NCBI RefSeq assembly: GCF_030269545.1
Contig: NZ_BSTN01000004.1
Coordinates: 248,001-312,000, forward strand
Source: Actinomadura sp. NBRC 104425
Lineage (GTDB): Bacteria; Actinomycetota; Actinomycetes; Streptosporangiales; Streptosporangiaceae
DNA length: 64,000 nucleotides
Direction: 5' to 3'
Shown here: piece after piece, positions 28,945 through 63,449 of the stretch
Layout of the letters: the number at the start of each line of letters is the position of its first letter
Position numbering within the stretch: the first letter of the stretch is position 1
Made by a program: the position numbers and the translations under genes
Notes under the pieces: generated by a model
Told to the model about the DNA's origin: nothing
The model's database searches: none
What the model saw: only the letters and a program-made list of their open reading frames with translations

Positions 28945-29760
28945 TTACGGCAAGGTCGGAGGTTCGTTCCGGTAGGCGCGGTGGAGCAGCTCCAGGAAGG
29001 ACGGCGCCTCGGGCAGTGGCACATCGCCGATCTGGTGGACCGCCACACCCGGTGTCCACGAGTTCATGACCACGGCGCCCGCCAAGGCTGGAAGGTCGCC
29101 GAGGGTGATCTCCTGGACGCGCTGGGGGACGCCGAGGCGCTCCAGTTGGCGGCGCACGATGCTCATTGTGATGCCGGTGAGCATTTCGGCCTGGGGCCAT
29201 ACCACCGCGGTTCCGTCCCAGAAGGCCAGGTTCCAGATCGTCGCCTCGCTGAGACGGCCCCGGCGGTCGACGAACGCGGCGTCGTCGAAGCCCTGTGCCA
29301 CGGCTTGGCGCAGGAAGTAGGTCTTGGCCACTTCCCCGACGTGCTTGACGGCCGGCAGGACGCGTTCGTACTCGACCGTCGTCAGTGTCAGCGGGCCCTG
29401 GGGGCCGGACGCGGCCGGGCCGGTGCGGATCAGCACCTGCGGCGCCCCGCCGGCACCGGACGCGGTGAATTCATCGGCAGGGGAGTAGACCGTGGCCGTC
29501 AGCGACAGGTCGGCCGGGCCGTTGTCCAGCGCCGTCCGCAGGTAATCGCGGATTCGTTCGTCGGGAAGGGCCTGACCGAACAACTCCTTGGAGGCCGAAC
29601 GCAACCGCTCCAGATGCAGGTCGAGGCCCCGGATCCGGCCCCCGCGCACCTGCATGGCGGTGAAGTGGGCGAAGCCCGCGAAGGCGAGCGGCGCCAGATC
29701 CTCGGCTGTCGCATCCCGGCCGTTGCGTTGGACGACGAACGAACGGGCATCGGTGCTCAT
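28945..29760 (-). CDS. Class IV aminotransferase (BCAT / ADC lyase fold)
   Basis: A 271-aa PLP enzyme of fold type IV. The Schiff-base lysine is most likely K139 (LPAVKHVGEVAKTYFLRQA), followed by GFDDAAFVDRRGRLSEATIWN with the conserved E172, and the phosphate-binding MLTGITMSIVRR. Family members are branched-chain or D-amino acid aminotransferases and aminodeoxychorismate lyases; this one is short and of unclear specificity. GGGAGA precedes the ATG at 29760. It is monocistronic, ended by a hairpin. Confidence 0.88.
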   Translation of the reverse strand: MSTDARSFVVQRNGRDATAEDLAPLAFAGFAHFTAMQVRGGRIRGLDLHLERLRSASKELFGQALPDERIRDYLRTALDNGPADLSLTATVYSPADEFTASGAGGAPQVLIRTGPAASGPQGPLTLTTVEYERVLPAVKHVGEVAKTYFLRQAVAQGFDDAAFVDRRGRLSEATIWNLAFWDGTAVVWPQAEMLTGITMSIVRRQLERLGVPQRVQEITLGDLPALAGAVVMNSWTPGVAVHQIGDVPLPEAPSFLELLHRAYRNEPPTLP

Positions 29761-30573: not shown

Positions 30574-31380
30574 TCAGTGGGGGCGTGTTTCGGGGTGGTA
30601 CCCGAGCTTGGCGGACAGCTCGCGGGCTACGGCCAAGGTCCGGCGGCCGGCTTCGTCCAGGTGGCCGCCGAGCCGGCCCTTGGGGGCGGAGACGTTGATC
30701 GCCGCGATGATGCCGCCGCGGAAGTCGCGGATGGGGGCCGAGACGCCGACGAGGCCCGGTTCGAACTCCTCGTCGACGGCGGCGAACCCCCGCTTGCGGA
30801 TCATGGCGATCTCGCGCAGCAGGTAGTCGATGTCCGGGGGGCGCTGGCGGGGGTGGCCGGGCATCGGGCTCTCCTTCAGCCAGGAGGCCATCCAGGCCCG
30901 CAGCGTGTCGGGAGCCCAGTCGGACAGCAGGACCCTGCCGGCCGATGTCATGGGCACCGGTACGGTCACTCCCTCCCAGCCGAGGCCGCGGAAGGCATGG
31001 GTGGGGGAGACCGACAGCAGAGTCAGCACCCCCGAGCCGCGAAGGACGCACAGATGGGTCGTCTCGTTGAGCGCGGCGACCAGGCGGCGGAGGTAGGGGG
31101 CGGCGAGGTGGGTGAGGCGGGCCTCGGCGGTGCGGGCGGCCAGCGCGTACAGGCGCCAGCCCAGCCGGTACTCCAGCGACTCGGGGTCCCGGTCGGCCAT
31201 GCCTTCGGATTCCAGGGCCTTCAGCGCTCGCGAGACCTGGCTCTTCTCCCGGCCGAGCAGTTCGGCGATCCGGCTCACCCCGAGGCCGCCCGAGGCGTGT
31301 TCGGGACGGGCGAGCAGCTCCAGGATCTCCAGGTCGCGGCGGAGGCCGGCGGACACGGGGGCGCGGGGGCGGTCGGTCAC
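30574..31380 (-). CDS. IclR-family transcriptional regulator
   Basis: A 268-aa regulator with an N-terminal winged helix (LRRDLEILELLARPEH; GVSRIAELLGREKSQVSRAL) and a C-terminal IclR effector domain (VPVPMTSAGRVLLSDWAPD; GFAAVDEEFEPGLVGVSAPI; IAAINVSAPKGRL). AGGAG lies 5 bases before GTG 31380 and only 2 before GTG 31383, so 31380 is chosen. It diverges from the OpuB/Fae operon with a palindrome in the gap and is the likely regulator of that operon. Confidence 0.93.
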   Translation of the reverse strand: MTDRPRAPVSAGLRRDLEILELLARPEHASGGLGVSRIAELLGREKSQVSRALKALESEGMADRDPESLEYRLGWRLYALAARTAEARLTHLAAPYLRRLVAALNETTHLCVLRGSGVLTLLSVSPTHAFRGLGWEGVTVPVPMTSAGRVLLSDWAPDTLRAWMASWLKESPMPGHPRQRPPDIDYLLREIAMIRKRGFAAVDEEFEPGLVGVSAPIRDFRGGIIAAINVSAPKGRLGGHLDEAGRRTLAVARELSAKLGYHPETRPH

Positions 31381-31399
31381 CACGACTCCTGACGTGTGC

Positions 31400-31497: not shown

Positions 31498-32145
31498 GTG
31501 AACTTCAGCGACTACGTACAGTCGCGCTGGGACGAGCTGTTCCAGGCCGCCGTTCAGCACGCGCTCGTCACGGCACTGTCGATCGCCATCGCCACCGTGA
31601 TCGGGGTGGGGATCGGCATCGCGGCCCACCGCCGCCCGCTGCTGTCGGGCCTGGCGGTCGGCGTGAGCGGCGGTGTGCTGACGGTCCCTTCGTTCGCCCT
31701 GCTGGGGCTGCTGATTCCGTTCCTCGGCCTCGGCTGGGCACCGACCGTGGTGGCGCTCGTGCTGTACTCGCTGCTGCCGATCGTGCGCAACACCATCGTC
31801 GGCCTGCGTTCGGTCGACCCGGCGGTGCTCGAGGCGGGGCGCGGGATGGGGATGAGCGCCCGGCGGGTGCTGGTCCGGGTGCAGCTCCCGCTGGCCTGGC
31901 CGATCATTCTCGCCGGCATCCGGGTGTCCACCCAGATGATCATCGGTATCGCGGCGATCGCCGCCTATGTCGCCGGTCCCGGGCTCGGCAACCAGATCTT
32001 CGACGCGCTGGCCAGGCTGGGCTCGGTGAACTCGCTGAACGCGGCGCTGGCGGGGACGCTCGGCGTGGTCGTGCTGGCGCTGGCGTTCGACCTCTTCTAT
32101 CTCGTCGTCCGACTCCTCACCACCCCGAGGGGGATTCGTGCTTGA
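31498..32145 (+). CDS. Quaternary-amine ABC transporter permease (OpuBB/ProW type)
   Basis: A 215-aa inner-membrane subunit with about five membrane segments. Landmarks are VLTVPSFALLGLLIPFLGLG, LPIVRNTIVGLRSVDPAVLE and GRGMGMSARRVLVRVQLPLA (EAA loop contacting the ATPase). The family takes up glycine betaine, choline, carnitine and related osmolytes or nutrients. The start is GTG 31498 behind an AGGAGGAGGT site. It overlaps the ATPase gene by 8 bases. In this operon the importer is followed by dehydrogenases, so uptake is probably for catabolism rather than osmoprotection. Confidence 0.93.
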   Translation: MNFSDYVQSRWDELFQAAVQHALVTALSIAIATVIGVGIGIAAHRRPLLSGLAVGVSGGVLTVPSFALLGLLIPFLGLGWAPTVVALVLYSLLPIVRNTIVGLRSVDPAVLEAGRGMGMSARRVLVRVQLPLAWPIILAGIRVSTQMIIGIAAIAAYVAGPGLGNQIFDALARLGSVNSLNAALAGTLGVVVLALAFDLFYLVVRLLTTPRGIRA

Positions 32146-33184
32146 CAACCTGAGCGGCGGCGCCCGCATCGAACTGGACGGGCTGACCAAGCGCTATCCG
32201 GGACAGGACGCGCCCGCCGTCGACAACGTCTCGATGGACATCCCGGCCGGTGAGCTGGTCGTCTTCGTCGGTCCGTCCGGCTGCGGCAAGACCACCACGA
32301 TGAAGATGATCAACCGGCTGATCGAGCCGACGTCGGGCAGCATCCGCATCGGCGGCCGGGACGTGCTGGCCATGCCCGCCGACGGGCTGCGCAGGCACAT
32401 CGGGTACGTCATCCAGCAGACCGGGCTGTTCCCGCACCTGACCATCGCCGACAACGTCGCCCTGGTGCCGCGGCTGCTGCGCTGGCCGAAGGCCAAGACG
32501 GCGGCCCGCGTCGAGGAGCTGCTGGACCTGGTCGGCCTGGACCCGTCGACGTTCGCCGGCCGGTACCCCTCCCAGCTGTCCGGCGGCCAGCAGCAGCGCG
32601 TGGGCGTGGCCCGCGCCCTGGCGGCCGACCCGCCGGTGATGCTCATGGACGAGCCGTTCGGCGCCACCGACCCGATCACCCGGGAGCGGCTGCAGAACGA
32701 GTTCCTGCGCCTGCAGCGGGAGCTGCGCAAGACGATCATCTTCGTCACGCACGACTTCGAGGAGGCGCTCAAGCTGGGCGACCGCATCGCCGTGCTGCGG
32801 GAGCGGTCGCGGATCGCGCAGTACGACACGCCCGCGCGCATCCTCGCCGCGCCCGCCGACGACTACGTGGCCGGCTTCATCGGCGGGGACGCGGCCCTCA
32901 AGCGGCTGGCCCTCATCACCGTCGGCGACGTCGCCGCGGCCGACTCCACCGCGTCCGGTTCCGACAAGCTGCCCCGCGTCGACGCGACCGCCAGTCTGCG
33001 GCAGGCGCTGGACACCATGGTCGCGCACGGCGTGCAGGAGGTCGCCTGCGACCAGGGCGTGCTGACGTACGCGCACGTCTGCGCCGCGCTCCGGGCGGCC
33101 GGACCGGCGATGGACGGGAGCGGGCGGACGGGCGCGGCGGAGACCGAGGAGACCCAGAGCGGGGCGGTGCGCGGTGCTCGCTGA
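32138..33184 (+). CDS. Quaternary-amine ABC transporter ATPase (OpuBA/ProV type)
   Basis: A 348-aa ATPase: Walker A GPSGCGKTT, Q-loop VIQQTGLFPH, signature LSGGQQQRVGVARAL, Walker B VMLMDEPFGATDP (Thr where most have Leu) and H-loop FVTHDFEEALKLGD. The C-terminal 80 residues carry only a short regulatory region in place of a full CBS pair, then an acidic tail. The start GTG 32138 is inside the permease gene. It energises the two flanking permeases. Confidence 0.93.
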   Translation: MLDNLSGGARIELDGLTKRYPGQDAPAVDNVSMDIPAGELVVFVGPSGCGKTTTMKMINRLIEPTSGSIRIGGRDVLAMPADGLRRHIGYVIQQTGLFPHLTIADNVALVPRLLRWPKAKTAARVEELLDLVGLDPSTFAGRYPSQLSGGQQQRVGVARALAADPPVMLMDEPFGATDPITRERLQNEFLRLQRELRKTIIFVTHDFEEALKLGDRIAVLRERSRIAQYDTPARILAAPADDYVAGFIGGDAALKRLALITVGDVAAADSTASGSDKLPRVDATASLRQALDTMVAHGVQEVACDQGVLTYAHVCAALRAAGPAMDGSGRTGAAETEETQSGAVRGAR

Positions 33185-33956
33185 ACCGACGGCCAGGCCG
33201 GCGGCCGCGCTCCCCGCGCGCAGGGCTCACCTGGGCCGGCGCGTCCTGCGGCACCTGGCCACCCCCGCGGCGCTCGCCGTCGTGCTGGGCGCGCTGTACC
33301 TGTACGTCTCGGCGCAGAGCCTCGACTCCATCGAGCGGCGCACCCTCAACTCCGGGTACCTGGTCGCCCGGGTCGGCGAGCACCTCAAGCTCACCGCGAT
33401 GGCCGTGCTGCTCGTCCTGCTGATCGCGATCCCGCTCGGCGTCCTGCTGTCGCGCCCTTCGGCCCGCCGGCTGGGCTCGCCCGTCCTGGCGCTGGCCAAC
33501 CTGGGGCAGGCGACGCCGGCCATCGGGCTGCTGGTGCTGCTGACCATCAAGTTCGGCGTCGGCTTCCGGATCGCGCTGATCGGCCTGGTCGCCTACGCCG
33601 TGCTGCCGGTGCTGCGCAACACGATCGTCGGGATCCGGCAGGTCGACGGGGCGCTGGTGGAGGCCGCCCGGGGCATGGGCATGACCCGGACCCAGGTGCT
33701 CGTGCGGGTCGAGCTGAAGCTGGCCGTCCCGGTGATCCTCGCCGGCCTGCGCACCGCGCTGGTGATGGCGGTCGGTGTGGCGACCCTGGCCACGTTCGTC
33801 AACGCCGGCGGGCTCGGCGACATCATCGTCAACGGCATCAAGCTCGACCGCACCCCGGTGCTGCTGACCGGCAGCGTGCTGACCGCCTGCATCGCCTTCC
33901 TCGTCGACTGGGTCGGCGGCGTCGCCGAAGACCTGCTGCGCCCCAAGGGCATGTGA
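33174..33956 (+). CDS. Quaternary-amine ABC transporter permease (OpuBD type)
   Basis: Second permease, 260 aa, with a longer N-terminus and about six membrane segments. It shows ANLGQATPAIGLLVLLTIKFG, LPVLRNTIVGIRQVDGALVE and ARGMGMTRTQVLVRVELKLA, parallel to the first permease. The start GTG 33174 overlaps the ATPase by 11 bases. Two permeases per system is the normal OpuB/OpuC layout. Confidence 0.93.
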   Translation: MLAEPTARPAAALPARRAHLGRRVLRHLATPAALAVVLGALYLYVSAQSLDSIERRTLNSGYLVARVGEHLKLTAMAVLLVLLIAIPLGVLLSRPSARRLGSPVLALANLGQATPAIGLLVLLTIKFGVGFRIALIGLVAYAVLPVLRNTIVGIRQVDGALVEAARGMGMTRTQVLVRVELKLAVPVILAGLRTALVMAVGVATLATFVNAGGLGDIIVNGIKLDRTPVLLTGSVLTACIAFLVDWVGGVAEDLLRPKGM

Positions 33957-34036
33957 CGCCCGAGGGCGTGCGAACCCGGGGGGTCTGCGGCCCCCGTCAC
34001 TCCGATTCCTGTCCCACCCCACTCAGGAGTTCCACC

Positions 34037-34993
34037 ATGTCCGCAATGTCCAAGAGGATCGCGGTGCTGGCTGCGCTGCCCGGCCTGCTGCTGACCGCCT
34101 GCGGCGGCTCGCCCACGACCGCCGAGCAGGGCAGCCTCGGCTCGGAGCTGAAAGGCGCCACCTTCACGGTCGGCTCCAAGGACTTCACCGAGTCGATCAT
34201 CCTCGGTCACATCACGATGGACCTGCTGCGCGCGCACGGCGCCAACGTCAACGACAAGACCAACATCAAGGGCTCCACCAACACCAGGACCGCCCTGACC
34301 ACCGGCAACGTCGACATGTACTGGGAGTACACCGGCACCGCGTGGGTGACCTACCTCAAGCACACCGAGCCGATGGCCGACCCCGCCAAGCAGTACCAGG
34401 CGGTCGCCAAGGAGGACCTGGACGCCAACAAGATCGTCTGGAGCAAGCCGGCGCCGCTCAACAACACCTACGCCTTCGCCATCCGCAAGGAGAAGGCCGC
34501 CGAACTCGGCGTGAGCAAGCTGTCCGACCTGGCCGCGCTCGTCCAGAACAAGCCGAACGAGGCCACCTTCTGCATCGAGAGCGAGTTCTCCACCCGCGAC
34601 GACGGCTGGCCCGGCATGACGAAGGCGTACGGCATCCAGGTGCCCAAGTCCAACGTCAAGATGCTCGACACCGGCCTCATCTACAGCGAGACCAAGAAGG
34701 GGAGCACCTGCAACTTCGGGGAGGTCTTCGCCACCGACGGCCGGATCGCCTCCATGGGCCTCACCGTGCTGCAGGACGACCGCAAGTACTTCCCCGTCTA
34801 CAACGCGGCGCTGACCCTCCGGCAGGACACCGCCACCAAGTACCCGCAGATCCAGCGGTTCCTGGACCCGGTGGCGGCCAAGCTCGACGACAACACCATG
34901 CGGCAGCTCAACGCCAAGGTGGACGCCGACGGCCTGGAGGCCGACCAGGTCGCCCACGAGTGGCTGGTCGAGAACGGATTCGTCAAGAAGTGA
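34037..34993 (+). CDS. Quaternary-amine ABC substrate-binding lipoprotein (OpuBC type)
   Basis: A 318-aa lipoprotein with signal peptide and lipobox LLTAC (C22). The mature domain begins TFTVGSKDFTESIILGHITM, the standard OpuAC start, and has Trp/Tyr residues suited to cage a trimethylammonium group (YWEYTGTAWVTY). CAGGAG lies before the ATG. It completes the importer. Ligand identity cannot be read from the sequence, but aromatic-rich pockets in this family bind betaines or carnitine-like compounds. Confidence 0.92.
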   Translation: MSAMSKRIAVLAALPGLLLTACGGSPTTAEQGSLGSELKGATFTVGSKDFTESIILGHITMDLLRAHGANVNDKTNIKGSTNTRTALTTGNVDMYWEYTGTAWVTYLKHTEPMADPAKQYQAVAKEDLDANKIVWSKPAPLNNTYAFAIRKEKAAELGVSKLSDLAALVQNKPNEATFCIESEFSTRDDGWPGMTKAYGIQVPKSNVKMLDTGLIYSETKKGSTCNFGEVFATDGRIASMGLTVLQDDRKYFPVYNAALTLRQDTATKYPQIQRFLDPVAAKLDDNTMRQLNAKVDADGLEADQVAHEWLVENGFVKK

Positions 34994-35007
34994 GCGGAGT
35001 TGAGAAC

Positions 35008-35520
35008 ATGAGCGACATACAGATCGGGGAGAGCTTCATCGGCGAGGGCTCCGAGGCCGCCCACATCAACACGGTGCTCGGGTCGCGCAGCGGCCCCGCC
35101 GGGACCGCCTGGGCCACCGCGCTGGCCGCGCCGCGGTCGGGGCACGTCCCGTTCGTGGCCGTGCTCAAGCCCGGCGTGCCGGCCAAGCCCGTCACCCTGT
35201 TCGTCAACAAGGCGCCCATCGAGTCGCCGGAGCACGCCGACCTGACCTGGGGCGCGGCCCAGGCGGGCGTGGCGGCCGGGGTGATGGACGCCGTGGCCGA
35301 GGGCGTGGTGCCCGAGTCCGCCGCCGACGACCTGGTGCTCATCGCCGCCGTGTGGGTCAATCCGAAGGCCGCCGACGCCGACCTGGTGTACGCCAACAAC
35401 CGCGAGGCCACCCGGACGGCGCTGCGCGCCGGGGCCGCCGGCCTGCCGACCGTCGACGAGGCGCTCGCCGCCCGGCACGCGCCGTCCAACCCCTTCTACA
35501 CGCCCTCGGGGGACGCGTGA
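35008..35520 (+). CDS. Formaldehyde-activating enzyme (Fae) family protein
   Basis: A 170-aa protein that is clearly Fae-like along its length: IGESFIGEGSEAAHINTVLG with the family's catalytic His in AHI, GPAGTAWATAL, VPFVAVLKPGVPAKPVTLFV, then GAAQAGVAAGVMDAVAEGVV and VYANNREATRTALR. Fae condenses formaldehyde with tetrahydromethanopterin in methylotrophs and archaea. Actinomycetes are not generally known to make that cofactor, so the partner here may be different. It sits inside a transporter/dehydrogenase operon, overlapping the enolase gene (GTGA). ATG 35008 with GGAG upstream is chosen. The reaction is inferred to involve a small aldehyde. Confidence 0.85.
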   Translation: MSDIQIGESFIGEGSEAAHINTVLGSRSGPAGTAWATALAAPRSGHVPFVAVLKPGVPAKPVTLFVNKAPIESPEHADLTWGAAQAGVAAGVMDAVAEGVVPESAADDLVLIAAVWVNPKAADADLVYANNREATRTALRAGAAGLPTVDEALAARHAPSNPFYTPSGDA

Positions 35521-36632
35521 AGATCACTGCCATTCGCCTGGACCGGATGCGGCTGCCGCTGGAGCCGCCGTTCCACGCCGCCTGGGACCCCGTCCCGCGG
35601 ACCTGGTTCGACGCCACCCTCGTCACCGTGGAGACCGACGAGGGCGTGGTCGGATACGGCTCGGGCGACACCATGGACGGGTTCGAGGCCCACGAGCACC
35701 TGTTCCTCGGCCGCGATCCGATGGCGATCGTCAACCACGTCAAGACACTTGAGACGATCAACTTCCACGCCGGGCGCTACTGGCCGCTGGAGGCCGCGCT
35801 CTGGGACATCATCGGCAAGGTCAGCGGGCTGACCGTGGCGGGCCTGTTCGGCGGCACCGCCGACCGGCTGCCGGCCTACGCCTCGTTCGGCGAGCTGCGC
35901 CCGCCCGCCGAGCGCGCCGAGGCGGCGCTGGCCGCCAAGGAGGCGGGCTTCCGCGCGATGAAGATCCGGGTGGCGCGGGACCGGCTGGCCGAGGGCCTGG
36001 CCGCGGTCCGCGCGACCCGGGAGGCGGTCGGCCCGGACATCGCGCTGATGGTCGACCTCAACCAGTCCTGGCGGATGTCCGGGGACATCGAGCCCGCCCT
36101 GGACCTTGCGTCGGTGCGCGCGTTCGCCGCCGAGCTGGCCGAGCTGAACGTGCTGTGGCTGGAGGAGCCGCTGCCGCAGTACGACATCGACGGGGCGCGC
36201 ATGGTCCGCGCGCACACCGGCGTGCGGGTGGCGGGCGGCGAGATGGTCCGCACCATGCCCGAGCTGCTGCACCTGCTCGAATCCGACGCGCTCGACGTCT
36301 ACCAGCCCGACGTCGTGCTGTCGGTCGGCATGCTGCGGGCCCGGACGATCGCCGAGCTGGCGTTCGCCAAGCACCGCTGGTTCACCCCGCACACCTGGAG
36401 CAACGGCCTGGGCGTCCTGGCCAACCTGCACGTCGTCGCCGGCGTCGGCGGCGGCCCGTACGTCGAGTTCCCCTACGACCCGCCGGGCTGGACCCCGGAA
36501 CGCAGGGACTTCTTCCTCGCCGAACCGCTGCAGGTGGACGCCGACGGCTACCTGAACGTGCCCGCCGCGCCGGGCCTGGGAGCCGAGATCGATCACGACG
36601 CGGTGCGCCGCTGGGCGAGAAAGGGGGCGTGA
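35517..36632 (+). CDS. Enolase-superfamily (mandelate racemase/muconate lactonizing type) enzyme
   Basis: A 371-aa barrel enzyme that abstracts a proton alpha to a carboxylate. An N-terminal capping domain precedes the barrel. Candidate catalytic residues are K149 and R151 (MKIRVARD), metal ligands D180 (MVDLNQSW), E216 (WLEEPLP) and E242 (VAGGEM), and a D265 / H292 pair (YQPDVVL; FTPHTWSNG). The K-x-R plus Asp-His arrangement resembles the MR/acid-sugar dehydratase branch, so it may dehydrate a hydroxy acid or racemise an imported betaine. Start GTG 35517 overlaps the Fae stop. The activity is unassigned. Confidence 0.88.
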   Translation: MKITAIRLDRMRLPLEPPFHAAWDPVPRTWFDATLVTVETDEGVVGYGSGDTMDGFEAHEHLFLGRDPMAIVNHVKTLETINFHAGRYWPLEAALWDIIGKVSGLTVAGLFGGTADRLPAYASFGELRPPAERAEAALAAKEAGFRAMKIRVARDRLAEGLAAVRATREAVGPDIALMVDLNQSWRMSGDIEPALDLASVRAFAAELAELNVLWLEEPLPQYDIDGARMVRAHTGVRVAGGEMVRTMPELLHLLESDALDVYQPDVVLSVGMLRARTIAELAFAKHRWFTPHTWSNGLGVLANLHVVAGVGGGPYVEFPYDPPGWTPERRDFFLAEPLQVDADGYLNVPAAPGLGAEIDHDAVRRWARKGA

Positions 36633-36633
36633 C

Positions 36634-38136
36634 ATGCCGGAGCACGAGACCGCGGATCACTGGCGCGAGCGGGCGGCCGGGATCGCGCCGCGGACCGAAC
36701 TGTTCATCGACGGCGCCTTCACACCGGCCGGCGACGGCGCGACGTTCGCGTCCATCGGCCCGCGGGACGGGCGGGAGCTGGCACGGATCTCCGCCGCGGG
36801 CGAGCAGGACGTGGACCGGGCCGTGCGGGCGGCGCACGCCGCCTTCGAGGACGGCCGGTGGTCGCAGGCGGCGCCCCGCCACCGCAAGCGGGTCCTGCTG
36901 CGGCTGAGCGAGCTGATGCGCGAGAACCTGCGGGAACTGGCGCTGCTGGAGACGTTGGACGTCGGCAAGCCCATCGCCGAGTCGCTCCGGGTCGACGTGC
37001 CCGGCGCCGCCGACTGCCTGCGCTGGTACGCCGAGGCGATCGACAAGACCTACGACGAGATCGCGCCCACCGGGCCCGGCGCCCTGGCCACGGTCACCCG
37101 CGAGCCGCTGGGCGTGGTCGGCGCGGTCGTGCCGTGGAACTACCCGCTGATCATTACCGCGTGGAAGATCGCGCCGGCGCTGGCGATGGGGAACTCGGTG
37201 GTGCTCAAGCCGGCCGAGCAGTCGTCCCTGTCGGCGCTGCTGCTGGCCGAGCTCGCGGCCGAGGCGGGCGTCCCCGACGGCGTCCTGAACGTCGTGCCGG
37301 GCCTCGGGCCGGTCGCCGGGCGGGCGCTGGGCCGCCACCCGCTGGTCGACAAGATCGCCTTCACCGGGTCGCCGCGCACCGGCCGCGCGTTCCTGGAGTA
37401 CGCCGGGCAGTCCAACGGCAAGCAGGTCGCGCTCGAACTCGGCGGCAAGTCGCCGCAGATCGTGTTCGCCGACGCGGCGGACCTGCGGGCCGCGGCCGAG
37501 GCGGTGGCCTGGGGCATCTTCTACAACGCCGGGCAGACCTGCAACGCGGGCTCGCGGCTGCTGGCCGACGAGCGCATCGCCGACGAACTGCTCGCCGAGG
37601 TGGTCAAGACGGCCGAGTCGATCAAGGTCGGCGACCCCCTCGACCCGGCGACGCAGATGGGGCCCATCGTCAGCCGGGAGCAGCTCGACCGCGTCCTCGA
37701 CTACGTCGACATCGGCCGCGCCGAGGGCCGCCTGGTCACCGGCGGCGACCGCGTCACCGCCGGGACGGACGGCTACTTCATCGCCCCCACCGTCTTCGAC
37801 GGCGTCGACAACACCGCGCGGATCGCCCAGGAGGAGATCTTCGGCCCGGTGCTCACCGTCACCAGGTTCGCCTCCGAGGAGCAGGCCGTGCGGCTGGCCA
37901 ACGACACCCGCTACGGCCTGGCCGCGAGCGTGTGGACCTCGCGGCTGACCACGGCGCACAGGGTCGCGGCCGCGGTGCGCGCCGGGACGGTCTGGGTCAA
38001 CACCTTCGACGCCAGCGACGTCATCACCCCCTTCGGCGGTTTCAAGGAGTCCGGGAGCGGGCGGGACAAGTCCCTGCACGCGCTGGACGCCTACTCCGCC
38101 CTCAAGACCACCTGGATCGACCTGGAGAGCTCGTGA
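36634..38136 (+). CDS. Aldehyde dehydrogenase (PuuC/betaine-aldehyde-like)
   Basis: A 500-aa NAD(P)+-dependent aldehyde dehydrogenase. Features are PWNYPLIITAWKIAPALAMG, KPAEQSSL, the catalytic Glu in LELGGKSPQIV, the catalytic Cys in NAGQTCNAGSRL and the C-terminal FGGFKESGSGRDKS. The resemblance is to gamma-glutamyl-aminobutyraldehyde and betaine aldehyde dehydrogenases, consistent with an amine-derived aldehyde. ATG one base after the enolase stop; its stop overlaps the next start. Confidence 0.93.
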   Translation: MPEHETADHWRERAAGIAPRTELFIDGAFTPAGDGATFASIGPRDGRELARISAAGEQDVDRAVRAAHAAFEDGRWSQAAPRHRKRVLLRLSELMRENLRELALLETLDVGKPIAESLRVDVPGAADCLRWYAEAIDKTYDEIAPTGPGALATVTREPLGVVGAVVPWNYPLIITAWKIAPALAMGNSVVLKPAEQSSLSALLLAELAAEAGVPDGVLNVVPGLGPVAGRALGRHPLVDKIAFTGSPRTGRAFLEYAGQSNGKQVALELGGKSPQIVFADAADLRAAAEAVAWGIFYNAGQTCNAGSRLLADERIADELLAEVVKTAESIKVGDPLDPATQMGPIVSREQLDRVLDYVDIGRAEGRLVTGGDRVTAGTDGYFIAPTVFDGVDNTARIAQEEIFGPVLTVTRFASEEQAVRLANDTRYGLAASVWTSRLTTAHRVAAAVRAGTVWVNTFDASDVITPFGGFKESGSGRDKSLHALDAYSALKTTWIDLESS

Positions 38137-39032
38137 AGATCGGTTTCATCGGCCTGGGCAACATGGGCGGCCCGATGGCCCGCAACCTGCTCAAGGCCGG
38201 ATACGACCTGGCCGTCCACGACATCCGCCGCGAGGCCGCCGAGCCCCACCTGCGGCTCGGCGCGACCTGGGCCGACGCGCCCGCCGAGGCCGGCAAGGGC
38301 AGGGACGCGGTCATCACCATGCTGCCCACCCCCCGCCACGTCGAGTCGGTGCTGCTGGGGCCGGACGGCCTGCTCGCCGCGATGGAGCCCGGCTCGGTCT
38401 GGATCGACATGTCGACGTCCGTGCCGGAGGTCGCCGACCGGGTGCGGGCGCTCGCCGCGGGCCGCGACGTCCAGGTCCTGGACGCCCCGGTGTCGGGAAT
38501 GGCCGCCGGCGCCCGCTCCGGCACGCTGCAGATCTTCGTTGGCGGCGACCGGGAGACCTACGAGCGGGTCCGCCCGATCCTGCACGTGCTCGGCGACCCC
38601 GAGCGCGTCATCCCGGTCGGCGGCCACGGCGCGGGCTACACCGTCAAACTCATGATCAACCTGCTGTGGTTCGCGCACCTGGTGGCCACCACCGAGGTCC
38701 TGACGATCGGCACCGCGGCGGGCGTGGACCTCGGCGTGCTCCGCGAGGCGCTGCTGGCCAGCCCGGCGGCCAGCAACTTCATCGACCGGGACGTGCTGTC
38801 GGTGCTGCGCGACGGCGACTACGACGAGTCCTTCGCGCTCGCGCTCGCCTGCAAGGACCTCGGCCTGGCGGTCGACCTGGCCCGCGACGTCAAGGTGCCC
38901 GCCGAACTGTCCGCGCTGGTGGAGCAGGTCTACCGCCGGGCCCGGCGGGCCTACGGCGACCTGGCCGGGGAGATGGCGCCCATGAAGCTCTGGGAGGATC
39001 TGCTCGGCGCGCCGCTCCGCCTGCCCGCCTGA
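38133..39032 (+). CDS. Beta-hydroxyacid dehydrogenase (HIBADH/GarR family)
   Basis: A 299-aa NAD(P)-dependent enzyme of the 3-hydroxyisobutyrate / tartronate semialdehyde reductase family. It has the dinucleotide motif GFIGLGNMGGPMARNL, the substrate motif DAPVSGMAAGARSGTLQIFV, the catalytic K172 (TVKLMINLLW) and KDLGLAVDLA. It interconverts a beta-hydroxyacid and a semialdehyde, so it could supply the substrate for either aldehyde dehydrogenase. Start GTG 38133 overlaps the preceding stop. Confidence 0.93.
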   Translation: MKIGFIGLGNMGGPMARNLLKAGYDLAVHDIRREAAEPHLRLGATWADAPAEAGKGRDAVITMLPTPRHVESVLLGPDGLLAAMEPGSVWIDMSTSVPEVADRVRALAAGRDVQVLDAPVSGMAAGARSGTLQIFVGGDRETYERVRPILHVLGDPERVIPVGGHGAGYTVKLMINLLWFAHLVATTEVLTIGTAAGVDLGVLREALLASPAASNFIDRDVLSVLRDGDYDESFALALACKDLGLAVDLARDVKVPAELSALVEQVYRRARRAYGDLAGEMAPMKLWEDLLGAPLRLPA

Positions 39033-39068
39033 ACGCCCCTCCACCCGTCTTCGCCCAAGGAAAAGATC

Positions 39069-40208
39069 ATGTCGCTTTCGCTCACGCTCGCCCCGACACC
39101 CACCGCGCACCTCGGCGCCGGCGCGGTCGCCATGCTCGGCGAACTCGCCGGGACCCGCCGGGTGCTGGTCGTCACCGACGCCGGCATCGCCGCCACGCCC
39201 GTGCTGCCCGCCGTGCTCGACGCCCTGTCCGGCACCGAGACCGCCGTCTTCACCGGAGTCCACGCCAACCCCACCACCGACGACATCGCAGCGGGCGCCG
39301 ACGCCGCCCGGGAGGCCGACGCGCAGGTCGTCGTCGCCGTCGGCGGCGGTTCGTCCATCGACGCCGCCAAGGGCATCGCGCTGGCGGCGGTCAACCCGCA
39401 GCGGGGCCGGGACCTGGACTACAGCAACGACTTCGCCGAACCCGCCCTCCCGATCATCGCCGTGCCCACCACGGCGGGCACCGGGGCCGAGACCAACGGC
39501 TTCGGGGTCATCACCGACGTCGAGGCGCACCGCAAGTTCTACGTGGGGCACGCCACGGCGGTGCCCGCGGCGGCCGTCCTGGACCCCGAACTGACCGTCG
39601 GCCTGCCGCCCGGCCCGACCGCGGCGACCGGGATGGACGCCCTCACCCACGCGCTGGAGTCCTACTCCTCAGTCCGCGCGAACCCCTGGGCGGACGGGAT
39701 CGCGCTGCAGGTCATCCGCATGGTCTCCCAGAACCTGCCCGCCGCCTGCCGGGACGGCGGCGACCTGGAGGCGCGCACCCAGATGCTGCTCGCCTCGCAC
39801 ATGGCCGGCATCGGCATGGGCACCACCGGCCTGGGCATCTGCCACGGCATCGGACACCCGCTGGGCGGCCGCTTCGACATCGCGCACGGCGTCGCCCTGA
39901 CCATGCTGCTGCCGCACGTCCTGCGCTTCAACCTGCCGGTGCGGCTCGACCGCACCGCCCAGGTGGCCTTCGCCCTCGGCGTCGGCGACACCGGCAAGAG
40001 CACCGAGTGGAACGCCGAGGCCGCGATCGACGCGGTGCGCCGCCTGGCCGCCGAGGTGGGGCTGACCGGCAGGCTCGGCGACCACGGAGTGAGCGAGGAC
40101 GACTTCGACCAGCTCGCCGAGGACGCACTCGACGACGAGGTCATGGCGAACACCCCGCGCCGGCCCACCGCAGACGAGATCCGCACCATCCTCGCCGCCG
40201 CGAGCTGA
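39069..40208 (+). CDS. Iron-containing alcohol dehydrogenase
   Basis: A 379-aa group III dehydrogenase. The NAD motif VVAVGGGSSIDAAKG and VPTTAGTGAETN are present. The predicted iron ligands are D190 and H194 (GMDALTHALES), H259 (GICHGIGHPLGG) and H273 (DIAHG), all retained. Members oxidise short-chain alcohols, 4-hydroxybutyrate or methanol. Given the Fae neighbour, a C1 or hydroxyacid substrate is possible but unproven. It has its own ribosome site (CAAGGAAAAG) 36 bases after the previous gene. Confidence 0.93.
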   Translation: MSLSLTLAPTPTAHLGAGAVAMLGELAGTRRVLVVTDAGIAATPVLPAVLDALSGTETAVFTGVHANPTTDDIAAGADAAREADAQVVVAVGGGSSIDAAKGIALAAVNPQRGRDLDYSNDFAEPALPIIAVPTTAGTGAETNGFGVITDVEAHRKFYVGHATAVPAAAVLDPELTVGLPPGPTAATGMDALTHALESYSSVRANPWADGIALQVIRMVSQNLPAACRDGGDLEARTQMLLASHMAGIGMGTTGLGICHGIGHPLGGRFDIAHGVALTMLLPHVLRFNLPVRLDRTAQVAFALGVGDTGKSTEWNAEAAIDAVRRLAAEVGLTGRLGDHGVSEDDFDQLAEDALDDEVMANTPRRPTADEIRTILAAAS

Positions 40209-40223
40209 CCCACCGGACACCAG

Positions 40224-41660
40224 ATGGACACGCAACCGCAGACGCACGGCCTGTTCATCGGCGGGACATGGCACCGCCCGGGCCCGACCTTCGAGGTATC
40301 CGATCCGGCCACCGGCCGCACCGTGGCCGAGGTCTCCGACGCCGGACCCGGCGACGCCCTCGCCGCGCTGGACGCCGCCGCGCAGGCGCAGCCGGACTGG
40401 GCCGGCACGCCGCCGCGCGAACGCGCCGAGATCCTGCGCCGCGCCTTCGACCTGCTGGTGGCGCGGACGGAGGAGTTCGCCGAGCTCGCCACCCTGGAGA
40501 TGGGCCGTCCGCTCGCCGAATCACGGGCCGAGGTGGCCTACGCGGCCGAGTTCCTGCGCTGGTTCGCCGAAGAGGCGGTCCGCATCGCGGGGGAGCACCG
40601 CACCGCCCCGGGCGGCGACTTCCGCATCGTCACCGCCCGCCGGCCGGTCGGCCCCTGCTATCTGATCACCCCGTGGAACTTCCCGCTGGCGATGATCACC
40701 CGGAAGGTCGGCCCCGCGCTGGCGGCCGGCTGCACGGTCGTCATCAAGCCCGCCGAGGCGACCCCGCTGTGCGCGCTCGCCCTCGCCTCCCTGCTCGCCG
40801 AGGCCGGGGTGCCCGCCGGTGTGGTCAACGTGCTGCCGACCCTGGACCCGGGACCGGTCACCACCGCGCTGCTGGCCGATGAGCGGCTCCGCAAACTGTC
40901 GTTCACCGGTTCCACCGAGGTCGGCCGGATGCTCCTGGCGCAGAGCGCGCCGGGCGTCCTGCGCACCTCGATGGAGCTCGGCGGCAACGCCCCGTTCCTG
41001 GTCTTCGACGACGCCGACATCGAGGCGGCGGCCGACGGGGCGCTGGTGGCCAAGATGCGCAACGCCGGGCAGTCCTGCGTCGCCGCCAACCGCTTCATCG
41101 TGCACCGGGCCGTCGCCGCGGACTTCGCCGAGGCGCTCCGCGCCCGCATGGCGCCGCTGCGGCTCGGCCCCGGCAGCGACCCCGCCTCCCAGGTCGGGCC
41201 GCTGATCGACGAGGCGGCCCGCACCAGGATCCACGGCCTGGTCACCGACGCGGCGGACAAGGGCGCCAAGGTTCTGCTCGGCGGCGAGATCCCCGCGGGT
41301 CCCGGCGCGTTCTACCCGCCCACGCTTTTGGTGGACGTGCCCCCGGACGCCGCCCTGCTGCACCGGGAGATCTTCGGACCGGTCGCCGCGATCACCGTGC
41401 AGCCCGACGAGGAGGCCATGGTGGAGGCGGCCAACGCCACCGCCGCCGGGCTGGTCGCCTTCGCCTACACCCGGGACCTGCAGCGGGCCTTCCGCGTCGG
41501 GGACCGGCTGGAGGCCGGCATGGTCGGCCTGAACCGCGGCCTGGTCTCCAATGCCGCCGCCCCGTTCGGCGGTATCAAGCAGTCCGGCCTCGGCCGCGAG
41601 GGCGGCTTCGAGGGGATCGACGAATACCTGGAGGTCAAATACATGGCGATCCAGGCCTGA
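40224..41660 (+). CDS. Aldehyde dehydrogenase (succinate-semialdehyde-dehydrogenase-like)
   Basis: A 478-aa aldehyde dehydrogenase. Landmarks are LITPWNFPLAMITRKVGPAL, IKPAEATPLCALAL, the catalytic Glu in MELGGNAPFLVF, the catalytic Cys in NAGQSCVAANRF, and the C-terminal FGGIKQSGLGREGG. The SRxxPL-type tail motif and overall form resemble GabD, so the product may be succinate or a related dicarboxylate. It is the last gene of the OpuB/Fae operon. Confidence 0.93.
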   Translation: MDTQPQTHGLFIGGTWHRPGPTFEVSDPATGRTVAEVSDAGPGDALAALDAAAQAQPDWAGTPPRERAEILRRAFDLLVARTEEFAELATLEMGRPLAESRAEVAYAAEFLRWFAEEAVRIAGEHRTAPGGDFRIVTARRPVGPCYLITPWNFPLAMITRKVGPALAAGCTVVIKPAEATPLCALALASLLAEAGVPAGVVNVLPTLDPGPVTTALLADERLRKLSFTGSTEVGRMLLAQSAPGVLRTSMELGGNAPFLVFDDADIEAAADGALVAKMRNAGQSCVAANRFIVHRAVAADFAEALRARMAPLRLGPGSDPASQVGPLIDEAARTRIHGLVTDAADKGAKVLLGGEIPAGPGAFYPPTLLVDVPPDAALLHREIFGPVAAITVQPDEEAMVEAANATAAGLVAFAYTRDLQRAFRVGDRLEAGMVGLNRGLVSNAAAPFGGIKQSGLGREGGFEGIDEYLEVKYMAIQA

Positions 41661-42918: not shown

Positions 42919-44646
42919 ATGACCAGCTTGGCCAGCGAACCCACCACTCGGGCGGATGGCGATGCGAATGGGACTCCCGCCCCGCAGGAGCGAGTCGAGT
43001 TCCGCACCGAACCGTCCCGCTACCGCCACTGGCGGCTCACGTTCGACGGCTCCGTTGCGACGCTCACCATGGACGTGGACGAACATGGAGGGCTGGTTCC
43101 GGGCTACGAACTGAAGCTGAACTCCTATGACCTCGGCGTCGACATCGAGCTCTACGACGCGGTGCAGCGGCTGCGCTTCGAGCACCCCGAGGTCCGCGCC
43201 GTGGTGATCACCGGCGGCAAGGAGAAGGTGTTCTGCGCGGGCGCCAACATCCGGATGCTGGCGGCCTCGCCGCACTGGTGGAAGGTGAACTTCTGCAAGT
43301 TCACCAACGAGACCCGCAACGGCATCGAGGACGCCTCGGCGAACTCCGGGCAGACCTACCTGGCCGCGCTCAACGGCACCGCCTCGGGCGGCGGTTACGA
43401 GCTGGCGCTGGCCTGCGAGCACATCATGCTGGTCGACGACCGCTCCTCGATGGTGTCCCTGCCCGAGCTGCCGCTGCTGGGCGTCCTGCCGGGCACCGGA
43501 GGGCTCACGCGCGTCGTCGACAAGCGGCATGTGCGGCGTGACCTGGCCGACTACTTCTCCACCAAGGCCGAGGGCGTCGGCGGCAAGAAGGCCGAGGCGT
43601 GGCGGCTGGTCGACGAGGCCGTGCCGCGCACCGCCTGGGCCGAGACCGTCGCCAAGCGGGCCGCGGAGTTCGCCGCCCGCTCCGACCGCCCGGCCGGCGC
43701 GCGCGGGATCGAGCTGACCCCGCTGGCCAAGACCCGCACCGACGACCACATCGGCTACCGCTACGTCAGCGCCGCACTGGACCGCGGCCGCGGCGTCGTG
43801 GAGATCACCCTGCTCGGCCCGGACGGCGACGCCCCGGCCGACCTCGCCGGCCTGCACGCCCAGGGCGCCGACTTCTGGACCCTCGCCCTGACCCGCGAGC
43901 TGGACGACCTGATCCTCGACCTGCGCACCAACGAGATCGAGCTGGGCACCTGGATCATCCGCACCCGCGGCGACGCCGCCCGCGTGCTCGACCACGACGC
44001 GCTGCTGCTGGACAACTCCGGCGACTGGCTGGCCCGCGAGATCGTGCTGTACCTCAAGCGGACCCTGAAGCGGCTGGACGTGACGAGCCGCAGCATCATC
44101 GCCCTCATCGAGCCCGGCAGCTGCTTCGCCGGCTCGCTGCTGGAGACGGCGCTGGCCGCCGACCGCTCCTTCCACCTGGCGGGCGTGTTCGAGGAGATCG
44201 ACCCCGACGCCGACCCGGCCGCGATCGTCCTCGGCCCGATGAACTTCGGCCCCCTGCCGATGGGCAACGACCTGACCCGCCTGGCCACCCGCTTCCACGG
44301 CGACCCCGAGGGGCTGGCCGCGGTGCAGGACGCGCAGGGCCGTCCGCTGCAGGCCGAGGAGGCCGAGCGGCTCGGCCTGGTCACCTTCGCGCCCGACGAC
44401 ATCGACTGGGACGAGGAGGTGCGCATCGCCGTCGAGGAGCGGGCCAGCTTCAGCCCGGACGCCCTGACCGGCATGGAGGCGAACTACCGCTTCGCCGGGC
44501 CCGAGACCATCGAAACCAAGATCTTCGGCCGGCTGTCCGCCTGGCAGAACTGGATCTTCAACCGTCCCAACGCCTCCGGACCCGACGGCGCGCTGCGCAA
44601 GTTCGGGACCGGGCAGCGCGCCACCTTCGACAGCAAGCGAGTGTGA
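42919..44646 (+). CDS. boxC: Benzoyl-CoA-dihydrodiol / 2,3-epoxybenzoyl-CoA lyase BoxC
   Basis: A 575-aa enzyme with two crotonase-like parts. It hydrolytically opens the epoxide ring formed by BoxB, giving 3,4-dehydroadipyl-CoA semialdehyde and formate. Signature stretches are YELKLNSYDLGVDIELYDAV, FCAGANIRMLAASPHWWKVN, FCKFTNETRNGIEDAS and TASGGGYELALACEHIMLVD, then in the second half IALIEPGSCFAGSLLETALA and GPMNFGPLPMGNDLTRLATR. The length and these blocks are specific to BoxC. It is the first gene after the promoter and 3 bases before boxB. Confidence 0.96.
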   Translation: MTSLASEPTTRADGDANGTPAPQERVEFRTEPSRYRHWRLTFDGSVATLTMDVDEHGGLVPGYELKLNSYDLGVDIELYDAVQRLRFEHPEVRAVVITGGKEKVFCAGANIRMLAASPHWWKVNFCKFTNETRNGIEDASANSGQTYLAALNGTASGGGYELALACEHIMLVDDRSSMVSLPELPLLGVLPGTGGLTRVVDKRHVRRDLADYFSTKAEGVGGKKAEAWRLVDEAVPRTAWAETVAKRAAEFAARSDRPAGARGIELTPLAKTRTDDHIGYRYVSAALDRGRGVVEITLLGPDGDAPADLAGLHAQGADFWTLALTRELDDLILDLRTNEIELGTWIIRTRGDAARVLDHDALLLDNSGDWLAREIVLYLKRTLKRLDVTSRSIIALIEPGSCFAGSLLETALAADRSFHLAGVFEEIDPDADPAAIVLGPMNFGPLPMGNDLTRLATRFHGDPEGLAAVQDAQGRPLQAEEAERLGLVTFAPDDIDWDEEVRIAVEERASFSPDALTGMEANYRFAGPETIETKIFGRLSAWQNWIFNRPNASGPDGALRKFGTGQRATFDSKRV

Positions 44647-44649
44647 CCC

Positions 44650-46068
44650 ATGGCCATCGCCGCTGACTACACCGAGAAGATCCCCAACAACGTCGACCTG
44701 CACGAGGACCGGCGCCTGCAGCGGGCCCTGGAGTCCTGGCAGCCGAACTTCCTGTCCTGGTGGGACTCGATGGGCCCCGCCCTGCCGACCCGCGACGTCT
44801 ACCTGCGCACCGCCGTCAACGTGGGACGCGAGGGCTGGGCGCACTTCGGCCACGTCGCGATGCGCGACTACCGCTGGGGCATCTTCCTCGCCGACCGCAA
44901 ACCGGACCGGCGCATCGCCTTCGGCCGGCACAAGGGCGAGCCGGTATGGCAGCAGGTGCCCGGCGAGTACCGCGCCGACCTGCAGCGCCTCATCGTCATC
45001 CAGGGCGACACCGAGCCCGCGTCCGTCGAGCAGCAGCGCCATCTCGGCGCGACCGCCCCCAGCCTGTACGACCTGCGCAACCTGTTCCAGGTGAACGTGG
45101 AGGAGGGCCGCCACCTGTGGGCGATGGTCTACCTCCTGCACGCCTACTTCGGACGCGAGGGCCGCGAAGAGGCGGAACTGCTGCTGCACCGGAACTCCGG
45201 CAGCGAGGAGTCGCCGCGCATCCTCGGCGCCTTCAACGAGGAGACGCCCGACTGGCTCTCCTTCTTCATGTTCACCTACTTCACCGACCGGGACGGCAAG
45301 TACCAGCTGGGGACGCTGAAGGAGTCGGCGTTCGACCCGCTCAGCCGCACCTGCGAGTTCATGCTGAAGGAGGAGTCGCACCACATGTTCGTCGGCACCA
45401 CCGGCATCGACCGGGTGGTGCAGCGGACCGTCGAGCTGATGCTCGAACACGACACCGACGACGTCGTCGCGCACGGCGGCATCCCGCTGGACATCATCCA
45501 GAAGTACCTGAACTTCCACTTCTCGGTGTCGCTGGACCTGTTCGGCTCGGAGACCTCGACGAACGTCGCCAACTACTTCACCGCGGGGCTCAAGGGGCGC
45601 TGGGCGGAGGAGCGCCGCAGGGACGACCACGTGCTGACCGACGACTCGATCATGGTTGATGCGATCGTCGACGGGAAGCCGGGGCAGACCGAGGTCGCGG
45701 CCCTGGTGGGGCTCAACACCGACCTGCGCCGCGAGTACATCGGCGACTGCCAGAACGGCGTCAACCGGTGGAACCGCATCCTGGAGGAGGCGGGCATCGA
45801 CCGGCGGCTCAAACTGCCGCACGTGGCGTTCAACCGCAAGGTCGGCGCGTTCGCCGACATCGAGGCGACCCCGGAGGGCGAGGTACTCTCGGCGGACGAG
45901 TGGGAGCGGCGCAAGGGCGAGTGGCTGCCCACCGAGGTGGACCGCACCCACGTCCGGTCGCTGATGCAGCCGGTCTACGAGCGCGGGAAGGTCGCCGCCT
46001 GGCTCGCCCCGCCCCGCCAGGGCATCAACGGCAAGCCCCTCGACTACGAATACGTCCACCTCGCCTGA
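44650..46068 (+). CDS. boxB: Benzoyl-CoA 2,3-epoxidase BoxB (diiron)
   Basis: A 472-aa diiron monooxygenase that epoxidises the ring of benzoyl-CoA with O2 and two electrons. A fitting set of metal ligands is E122, E152 and H155 (in VEEGRH), D213, E242 and H245 (in KEESHH). These agree in spacing with the BoxB ligands as I recall them. Regions such as LFGSETSTNVANYFTAGLKG and FNRKVGAFADIEA are also family-like. Electrons should come from the reductase and ferredoxin encoded two and three genes downstream. Confidence 0.96.
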   Translation: MAIAADYTEKIPNNVDLHEDRRLQRALESWQPNFLSWWDSMGPALPTRDVYLRTAVNVGREGWAHFGHVAMRDYRWGIFLADRKPDRRIAFGRHKGEPVWQQVPGEYRADLQRLIVIQGDTEPASVEQQRHLGATAPSLYDLRNLFQVNVEEGRHLWAMVYLLHAYFGREGREEAELLLHRNSGSEESPRILGAFNEETPDWLSFFMFTYFTDRDGKYQLGTLKESAFDPLSRTCEFMLKEESHHMFVGTTGIDRVVQRTVELMLEHDTDDVVAHGGIPLDIIQKYLNFHFSVSLDLFGSETSTNVANYFTAGLKGRWAEERRRDDHVLTDDSIMVDAIVDGKPGQTEVAALVGLNTDLRREYIGDCQNGVNRWNRILEEAGIDRRLKLPHVAFNRKVGAFADIEATPEGEVLSADEWERRKGEWLPTEVDRTHVRSLMQPVYERGKVAAWLAPPRQGINGKPLDYEYVHLA

Positions 46069-46086
46069 AACCGGACGGCACAGTAG

Positions 46087-47661: not shown

Positions 47662-48752
47662 GCGGCCCTGCGATGACCGGACCCGACACGACAGGTCCCG
47701 TGACGACCGGCGCTGACACCACCGCTTCTGCGATGGCCGGTTCTCGGACGACAGGCTCTGCCGAGGCCGACATCGAACGCGACCTGCTGATCGTCGGCGC
47801 CGGCCCGGTCGGCCTGTACGCCGCCTACTACGCCGGGTTCCGGGGGCTGTCGGTCGCCGTGGTCGACTCCCTGCCGGAGATCGGCGGGCAGGTCACCGCG
47901 ATGTACCCGGAGAAACCGATCTACGACGTCGCCGGGTTCCCCGCGGTCAGGGGCCGCGACCTGGTGGCCGGCCTGCTGGAGCAGGCCAGGCGGTTCACGC
48001 CGGCGTTCGTGCTCGGCCAGCGCGCCCAGACCCTGGAAAAGGATGCCGCCGGAGTGTTCACGGTGACCACCGACACCGGCACCCGCATCCGCTGCCGGGC
48101 CGTCGTGATCAGCGGCGGGATCGGCACCTTCACCCCGCGGCCCCTCCCGGCGGGGGAGGGCTGGCTGGGGCGCGGCCTGTCCTACTTCGTGCCCTCGCTG
48201 GAGGCGCACGCAGGCCAGGATGTGGTCGTGGTCGGCGGCGGCGACAGCGCCTGCGACTGGGCGCTGAGCCTGGAGCCGATCGCCCGCTCGGTCACGCTGG
48301 TGCACCGCCGCGCCGCGTTCCGGGCGCACGAGCACAGCGTGGCCCGGCTCCGCGCCTCGACGGTCGAGGTGATCACCGAGGCGCAGGTCACCGCCGTGCG
48401 CGGCGACCGCGCCGTCGAAAGCGTGGAGATCACCGGTCCCGGCGGGCGGATGACGCGTCCGGCGCAGGCGGTGATCGCGGCGCTCGGCTTCACCGCCAAC
48501 CTGGGCCCGATCCGGCAGTGGGGGCTGGAGGTGGTCGGCAACCGCTACCTGGCGGTGGACACCACCATGGCCACCAGCGTCCCCGGCGTGTTCGCTGCCG
48601 GGGACATCACCGACTACCGCGGCAAGGTGCGGCTGATCTCGGTCGGCTTCGGCGAGGCGGCCACCGCCGTCAACAACGCCGCCGTCCTGATCAACCCGGA
48701 GGAGCAGCTGTTCCCCGGCCACTCCACCGACAGCGTCCCCGCGGTGGCCTGA
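47658..48752 (+). CDS. Thioredoxin-reductase-like ferredoxin-NADP+ reductase
   Basis: A 364-aa FAD flavoprotein. After a Thr/Gly/Ala-rich N-terminus of about 35 residues with TTG repeats come the FAD motif LLIVGAGPVGLYAAYYAGF, GGQVTAMYPEKPIYDVAGFP, the NADPH motif VVVVGGGDSACDWALSL and the second FAD motif VPGVFAAGDITDYRGKVRLI. There is no CxxC redox pair, so it is a type 2 ferredoxin reductase rather than a thioredoxin reductase. Its position suggests it does the NADPH-oxidising work normally done by the BoxA flavin domain. It overlaps the ligase stop (ATGA). Confidence 0.9.
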   Translation: MSGPAMTGPDTTGPVTTGADTTASAMAGSRTTGSAEADIERDLLIVGAGPVGLYAAYYAGFRGLSVAVVDSLPEIGGQVTAMYPEKPIYDVAGFPAVRGRDLVAGLLEQARRFTPAFVLGQRAQTLEKDAAGVFTVTTDTGTRIRCRAVVISGGIGTFTPRPLPAGEGWLGRGLSYFVPSLEAHAGQDVVVVGGGDSACDWALSLEPIARSVTLVHRRAAFRAHEHSVARLRASTVEVITEAQVTAVRGDRAVESVEITGPGGRMTRPAQAVIAALGFTANLGPIRQWGLEVVGNRYLAVDTTMATSVPGVFAAGDITDYRGKVRLISVGFGEAATAVNNAAVLINPEEQLFPGHSTDSVPAVA

Positions 48753-48804
48753 TGCACGTTCCGGCGGACCGCGGCCGCACCGACCGAACCGAGGAGGAAA
48801 CGCC

Positions 48805-49448: not shown

Positions 49449-49467
49449 GGAGCCGGTGAGAGGAGAC

Positions 49468-50949: not shown

Positions 50950-50983
50950 CCGCACACTCCGACATGCCCATGGAGGACACCCG

Positions 50984-53271: not shown

Positions 53272-53274
53272 GCC

Positions 53275-54141: not shown

Positions 54142-54193
54142 GGCCGACGGGTCCCTCCTCGGACGTTGATCGCCACCGAATCGCTGCCACGCG

Positions 54194-61688: not shown

Positions 61689-61691
61689 CCA

Positions 61692-63429: not shown

Positions 63430-63449
63430 GATCATCCCGAGAGGACGAG

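Follow-up and report, generated by a model that had tools for sequence, protein, structure and literature searches.

A gene at 35008-35520 of the window, a 64,000-nucleotide stretch of DNA from Actinomadura sp. NBRC 104425, raises the question of what a formaldehyde-activating enzyme (Fae) could be doing in a genome that carries no sign of its cofactor, tetrahydromethanopterin (H4MPT). A sequence-only reading of this DNA had proposed that the gene encodes a Fae-family protein with its AHI motif and fold kept, that the cofactor partner is absent, and that the protein may use another acceptor or another aldehyde.

The Fae protein, its clade and the missing cofactor

The 170-residue product matches PF08714 over the full length of the family (181.8 bits, cut-off 27; model positions 1-158 of 159) and also passes the equivalog-domain model TIGR03126 (163.4 bits, cut-off 118). 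The AHI motif is found at residues 18-20, and its histidine, His19, is kept in 56/56 sequences of the subfamily and 7/7 canonical Fae sequences in the alignment. The earlier reading had called for a structure prediction. An AlphaFold model was built from 38 relatives (pLDDT 94.7) and superposes on the Methylobacterium Fae, 1y5y/1y60, with Z 27 and 1.3 A over 159 residues, at about 36% identity. Family, motif and fold are thus as the earlier reading described them. Apart from Fae, the fold search found nothing but EF-G-type matches of middling quality (Z about 8), which, judged on the predicted model, are the common S5-domain-2-like arrangement and give no functional hint. By homology with canonical Fae, His19 would be catalytic and the protein active.

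The window is part of a 7.54-Mb draft genome, 99.7% complete, in which this is the only Fae. A complete H4MPT pathway elsewhere in the genome, which, together with a conserved pocket, the earlier reading had named as the finding that would count against it, was looked for through three marker families: methenyl-H4MPT cyclohydrolase (Mch), the formyltransferase Ftr and beta-RFAP synthase, which is required for H4MPT synthesis. None of the three was found in this near-complete genome, so the suspicion about the cofactor was right. Mch was found in 0/342 sampled genomes of the order. Fae itself occurs in 17/345 genomes of the order and 17/396 of the phylum, and its distribution is therefore patchy. 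Mch is missing in 35 of the 40 named carriers of a close relative of this Fae. This covers 30/30 actinobacteria and one half of the proteobacteria; the carriers that do have Mch, five in number, are loci of Caballeronia or Burkholderia. Searches of the genome for the RuMP hexulose-phosphate synthase and for NDMA methanol dehydrogenase gave matches below cut-off only. A dedicated S-(hydroxymethyl)mycothiol dehydrogenase is encoded on another contig (688 bits), and formaldehyde is probably handled by that enzyme.

For comparison, 56 relatives were aligned with canonical Fae, represented by 1y5y and six sequences from plasmids (seven in all, four of them encoded directly next to mch). Both sets share Glu8, His19, Lys68 and Gln85. 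Four residues that are invariant in canonical Fae are replaced in 56/56 clade members (D21N, Q76H, F116W and H161N), and seven more changes are found in at least 90% of them (L10F, L49F, F66V, V69A, F81W, G114A and I117V). In the tree, a branch 3.64 changes per site long (support 99/100) divides canonical Fae from the rest; a second Caballeronia Fae, whose row is very long, was left unplaced. On these alignments, the window Fae belongs to a distinct clade far from canonical Fae, and that clade has lost its connection with H4MPT. Canonical Fae (5,6,7,8-tetrahydromethanopterin hydro-lyase, EC 4.2.1.147) has the same fold, length, catalytic histidine, E8, K68 and Q85, but its gene lies beside mch, ATP-grasp and RFAP genes, whereas the genes of the window clade lie in a betaine-type operon with no H4MPT genes.

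Divergent Fae proteins have been described before. The family has been divided into five groups, with a known role for two only (PMC11748545), and Fae2 and Fae3 are dispensable in a methylotroph, Methyloversatilis (PMC5023235). Groups 2-4 of that division and Fae2/Fae3 are likewise divergent paralogues that methylotrophy does not need, but they were studied in methylotrophs with H4MPT, whereas the window clade is found mostly in genomes without Mch. Two other observations concern the wider family. In Caballeronia grimmiae, one plasmid encodes two distinct Fae homologues, separated by 11 kb (L019:63-596 and L019:11998-12510), one of the window clade and the other very divergent, at about 30% identity. 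Three actinobacterial loci (L143, L144 and L145) have Fae-family matches of about 100 bits only and perhaps represent yet another Fae-like group.

The automatic name "formaldehyde-activating enzyme", and any methylotrophy call made from it, is probably wrong for carriers of this clade, because the protein passes the name-giving model (163 against 118 bits) in genomes without the genes that make or use the cofactor.

The operon around fae

The earlier reading did not describe the operon, which turned out to be the main clue. Ten co-directional genes are tightly packed at 31498-41660, and an IclR regulator faces away from them:

30574..31383, - strand: IclR-family regulator (PF01614/PF09339), divergent from the operon; adjoins the operon in 42/91 loci
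31498..32145, + strand: ABC permease of the OpuC type (PF00528); position conserved
32138..33184, + strand: ABC ATPase of the betaine/proline/choline type; its best NCBIfam family is proV at 306.6 bits, just missing the cut-off of 326.6
33174..33956, + strand: second ABC permease, clustering with the first; order conserved
34046..34993, + strand: solute-binding lipoprotein of the OpuAC/OsmF type (PF04069, 212 bits)
35008..35520, + strand: fae, Fae-family protein of 170 residues, of a clade without H4MPT
35517..36632, + strand: enolase-superfamily enzyme of the mandelate racemase/acid-sugar dehydratase type (PF13378, 178 bits)
36634..38136, + strand: aldehyde dehydrogenase (ALDH) of the PuuC/betaine-aldehyde type (PF00171, 568 bits; PuuC 627 and BADH 520 bits, all under the equivalog cut-offs)
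38133..39032, + strand: dehydrogenase of the 3-hydroxyisobutyrate/tartronate-semialdehyde reductase type (HIBDH); overlaps the preceding gene
39069..40208, + strand: iron-dependent alcohol dehydrogenase (PF00465/PF25137); closest solved relative an NAD methanol dehydrogenase, 271 bits
40224..41660, + strand: aldehyde dehydrogenase of the succinate-semialdehyde type (SSADH subfamily, 529 bits, cut-off 646)

The fae gene starts 14 bases after the binding-protein gene and shares four bases, GTGA, with the gene that follows; GTGA or 4-bp overlaps occur between operon genes. The same gene order is repeated in Thermomonosporaceae, Streptosporangiaceae, Microbacteriaceae and Micrococcaceae, with Fae identities of about 60-85%. 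Upstream, a class IV aminotransferase (28945-29760, PRK09266 type, above cut-off) adjoins the IclR regulator; it is not kept there in relatives.

An OpuAC binding domain, two permeases and a ProV-like ATPase stand together in one operon, the combination by which an OpuC/OsmF importer is recognised. The closest solved structures to the binding protein are glycine betaine binders of the OsmF type, and its Y98, Y145, W191 and Y216 are conserved in 37 relatives. At family level, as far as the predicted proteins tell, the importer is of the OpuC/OsmF betaine type. The enolase-superfamily enzyme has the mandelate-racemase pattern of a KxR/K base, three acidic metal ligands and an Asp-His dyad, with K149xR151, D180, E216/E217, E242, D265 and H292 conserved at 95% or more.

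Variant fae loci in other bacteria

One scan of species genomes gave 80 fae loci, and gene clusters were counted over 86 or 91 loci. An OpuC importer lies near fae in 37/91 loci. A ProX-type importer is found in locus L105, with another at the same position in L116, a BCCT carrier is found in the SAR324 locus L108, and the remaining loci have Opp-type or MFS carriers. HIBDH or an aldo/keto reductase (AKR) lies no more than eight genes from fae in 60/86 loci, and a zinc alcohol dehydrogenase stands in for them in L077. An SSADH-type aldehyde dehydrogenase commonly accompanies fae, in most loci with an alcohol-oxidising enzyme, and the orders fae-HIBDH-SSADH and fae-AKR-SSADH recur. In some loci fae is paired with a class III/NDMA-type alcohol dehydrogenase.

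Beside these shared genes, the loci often carry one of several exchangeable modules. The first is the enolase-superfamily enzyme, found without the other modules in 34 loci; L105 and L116 carry it with a GMC oxidase and an aldehyde dehydrogenase, a set which is the window module with another alcohol oxidase. The second module, in nine loci, is an FGGY kinase, a KduD-type SDR and an FAD enzyme resembling alkyl-DHAP synthase (AGPS); L045 and L046 also have it, just outside the counting range. It occurs together with the enolase module only in L100. The third module is a 2OG-Fe(II) oxygenase with its HxD...H motif intact, closely adjoining fae in 14 loci.

The FAD enzyme of the variant operons scores 183 bits against AGPS and 111 bits against glycolate oxidase. 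AGPS is its nearest solved relative and has the HHHGVGK motif in common with it; the motif, as HHHG(V/I)GK, was seen in 12/13 of the FAD enzymes, and the search left L064 unsettled. AGPS makes an ether, whereas the variant-operon enzyme, which is not in the window, stands with a kinase and an SDR in a catabolic setting and is proposed to cleave one. If the modules are alternative cutters of a glyceryl ether, the FAD enzyme should be AGPS-like; this expectation was set beforehand, and the AGPS homology was then found.

The third module's oxygenase is HalD-like and is probably a hydroxylase, since its HxD...H motif is intact; a search by sequence for a solved relative found none. Its loci (L044, L051, L052, L070, L073, L080, L082, L084, L088, L090, L091, L094, L098 and L113) span Acidimicrobiia, other actinobacterial MAGs, a Myxococcota and a proteobacterial MAG. 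HIBDH or AKR is present in 0/14 of these loci against 60/72 of the others (Fisher 2e-9, for loci that are not independent, so that shared ancestry confounds the anticorrelation and short contigs weaken it). This is as expected if the oxygenase gives the aldehyde directly. Twelve loci have neither HIBDH/AKR nor the oxygenase nearby. Separately, an Acidimicrobiales fae locus encodes a Rieske ring-hydroxylating-type oxygenase (L076:4091-5257); that family includes betaine and carnitine oxygenases.

Possible links to histidine and ergothioneine were considered and rejected. Urocanase, HutF and an allantoate-amidohydrolase-type gene lie beside fae in L026, L028 and L072, and they were treated as chance neighbours because they are genuine hut genes (hutU 891 bits) of one MAG genus. 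A HAL-like lyase in L037 is a single case at 316 bits, below its cut-off of 524. As for ergothioneine breakdown, neither thiourocanate nor ergothionase genes accompany the operon.

What this Fae may do

A diverged, reassigned Fae clade with a known fold, working in a catabolic operon, is the sensible reading of these results. The related operons, found in bacteria that are not close kin, point to another small molecule as the substrate of this Fae branch, perhaps a betaine derivative. The reading we favour, tentatively though it may well be right, is that the clade left the H4MPT pathway and became a fixed step of a catabolic route for a betaine-type (onium) solute that the cell takes up. That importers from different betaine families (OpuC, ProX and BCCT) adjoin fae speaks for a betaine; against it, OpuC-type binders also take solutes unlike betaines, such as ergothioneine (EgtU), and other loci have Opp or MFS importers.

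In this proposal, the ABC importer would take up a betaine-type solute, and in the window's version of the operon the iron-dependent alcohol dehydrogenase, the PuuC-type aldehyde dehydrogenase and the enolase-superfamily enzyme would strip off a side group. The side group may be a glyceryl ether, a guess drawn from the chemistry of the enzyme families: its glycerol end would be oxidised to a glycerate ether, from which the alcohol would then be eliminated. The released hydroxy-betaine would be converted to an aldehyde by the hydroxyacid dehydrogenase. This aldehyde-level onium intermediate would be the substrate of Fae. The reaction would most likely be C-N cleavage with His19 as acid/base and loss of trimethylamine, or a related hydro-lyase step, and the leftover C4 semialdehyde would be oxidised by the SSADH-type enzyme. 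Fae is placed at the aldehyde stage because it is the constant member, even in loci whose one linked partner, an oxygenase, would form an aldehyde. The carbon on which canonical Fae acts is likewise at the aldehyde level and bound to nitrogen. On the chemistry of the enzyme families, every step would suit homoserine betaine derived from DGTS, a betaine lipid.

Put in its most specific form, this would be a new pathway for glyceryl-ether betaine-lipid headgroups (for example glyceryl-homoserine betaine, from DGTS), with Fae as a trimethylamine-releasing lyase on an aldehyde betaine and with the enolase-superfamily, alkyl-DHAP-synthase-like and 2OG-oxygenase modules as three exchangeable ether cleavers. 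In that full form it is unlikely to be right, and there is better support for a non-H4MPT Fae that serves the breakdown of an imported onium-type solute than for C-N cleavage or homoserine betaine specifically. Among the classified neighbours of fae, no genes for trimethylamine use or lipid deacylation were identified. We know of no precedent for C-N elimination by the Fae fold. Operons for the breakdown of homocholine, choline and carnitine likewise combine a quaternary-ammonium importer with alcohol and aldehyde dehydrogenases, but none known to us has a Fae or an enolase-superfamily enzyme.

The other explanations keep some form of the family's formaldehyde or hydro-lyase chemistry, or none at all. 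Fae might join formaldehyde from the pathway to a non-pterin acceptor specific to the operon, with HIBDH or AKR and the SSADH-type enzyme oxidising the hydroxymethyl product. The retained His19, Lys68 and Gln85, the recurring fae-HIBDH-SSADH and fae-AKR-SSADH orders, the closeness of the iron-dependent enzyme to methanol dehydrogenases and the class III/NDMA-type partners are all consistent with this, yet neither the window operon nor most variants contain a demethylase or other clear source of formaldehyde, and a mycothiol route for formaldehyde detoxification is encoded elsewhere. We regard it as unlikely, though with real weight. Somewhat harder to credit is a hydratase or dehydratase role, in which the Fae fold would hydrate an unsaturated acid or aldehyde and HIBDH would oxidise the hydroxy product without any C1 chemistry; Fae is formally a hydro-lyase, and HIBDH and SSADH come after fae, but the pairing of fae with the 2OG oxygenase where HIBDH and AKR are missing is left unexplained.

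The idea that Fae detoxifies or scavenges with mycothiol or tetrahydrofolate, guarding against formaldehyde from the breakdown of methylated solutes, is very unlikely. The organism does have a mycothiol-dependent formaldehyde dehydrogenase, but the clade also occurs in proteobacteria, which to our knowledge do not make mycothiol, and none of the genes seen linked to fae concerns thiols or folate. In other groups, Fae-like proteins have been proposed to work with folate (PMC11748545). The residue changes fixed in the clade, and its separateness, agree with the earlier suggestion of another acceptor or aldehyde; mycothiol as that acceptor is disfavoured because the dedicated mycothiol dehydrogenase lies on another contig and the operon concerns an imported solute.

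We give still less credence to a non-catalytic sensor, binding protein or moonlighting remnant. Fae-like groups have been proposed to act in regulation or sensing (PMC11748545), but the neighbours here are mostly enzyme genes, the catalytic histidine is invariant, and the oxygenase is a partner in 14 loci. That this is a canonical H4MPT-dependent Fae with an overlooked pathway is, for all the good family-model match, close to refuted by the absence of Mch, Ftr and RFAP synthase from the genome and of Mch from the order's sampled genomes, and by the changed invariant residues.

The operon variants matter as a concrete route to the real function, and they may expose an undescribed pathway by which soil and freshwater bacteria use betaine-type solutes or the headgroups of lipids.

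Two other parts of the window were noted in passing. Candidate genes of the aerobic benzoyl-CoA (box) pathway lie at 43069-54213 (a long enoyl-CoA hydratase-type protein, a PaaA/PaaC-like protein, a pyridine-nucleotide-disulphide-type reductase, a 3-hydroxyacyl-CoA dehydrogenase and a PaaX-type regulator) and are not conserved near fae in relatives. At 60000-64000 the ORFs tested had no family matches and the GC content drops from about 72% to 59%, so this is possibly a foreign stretch.
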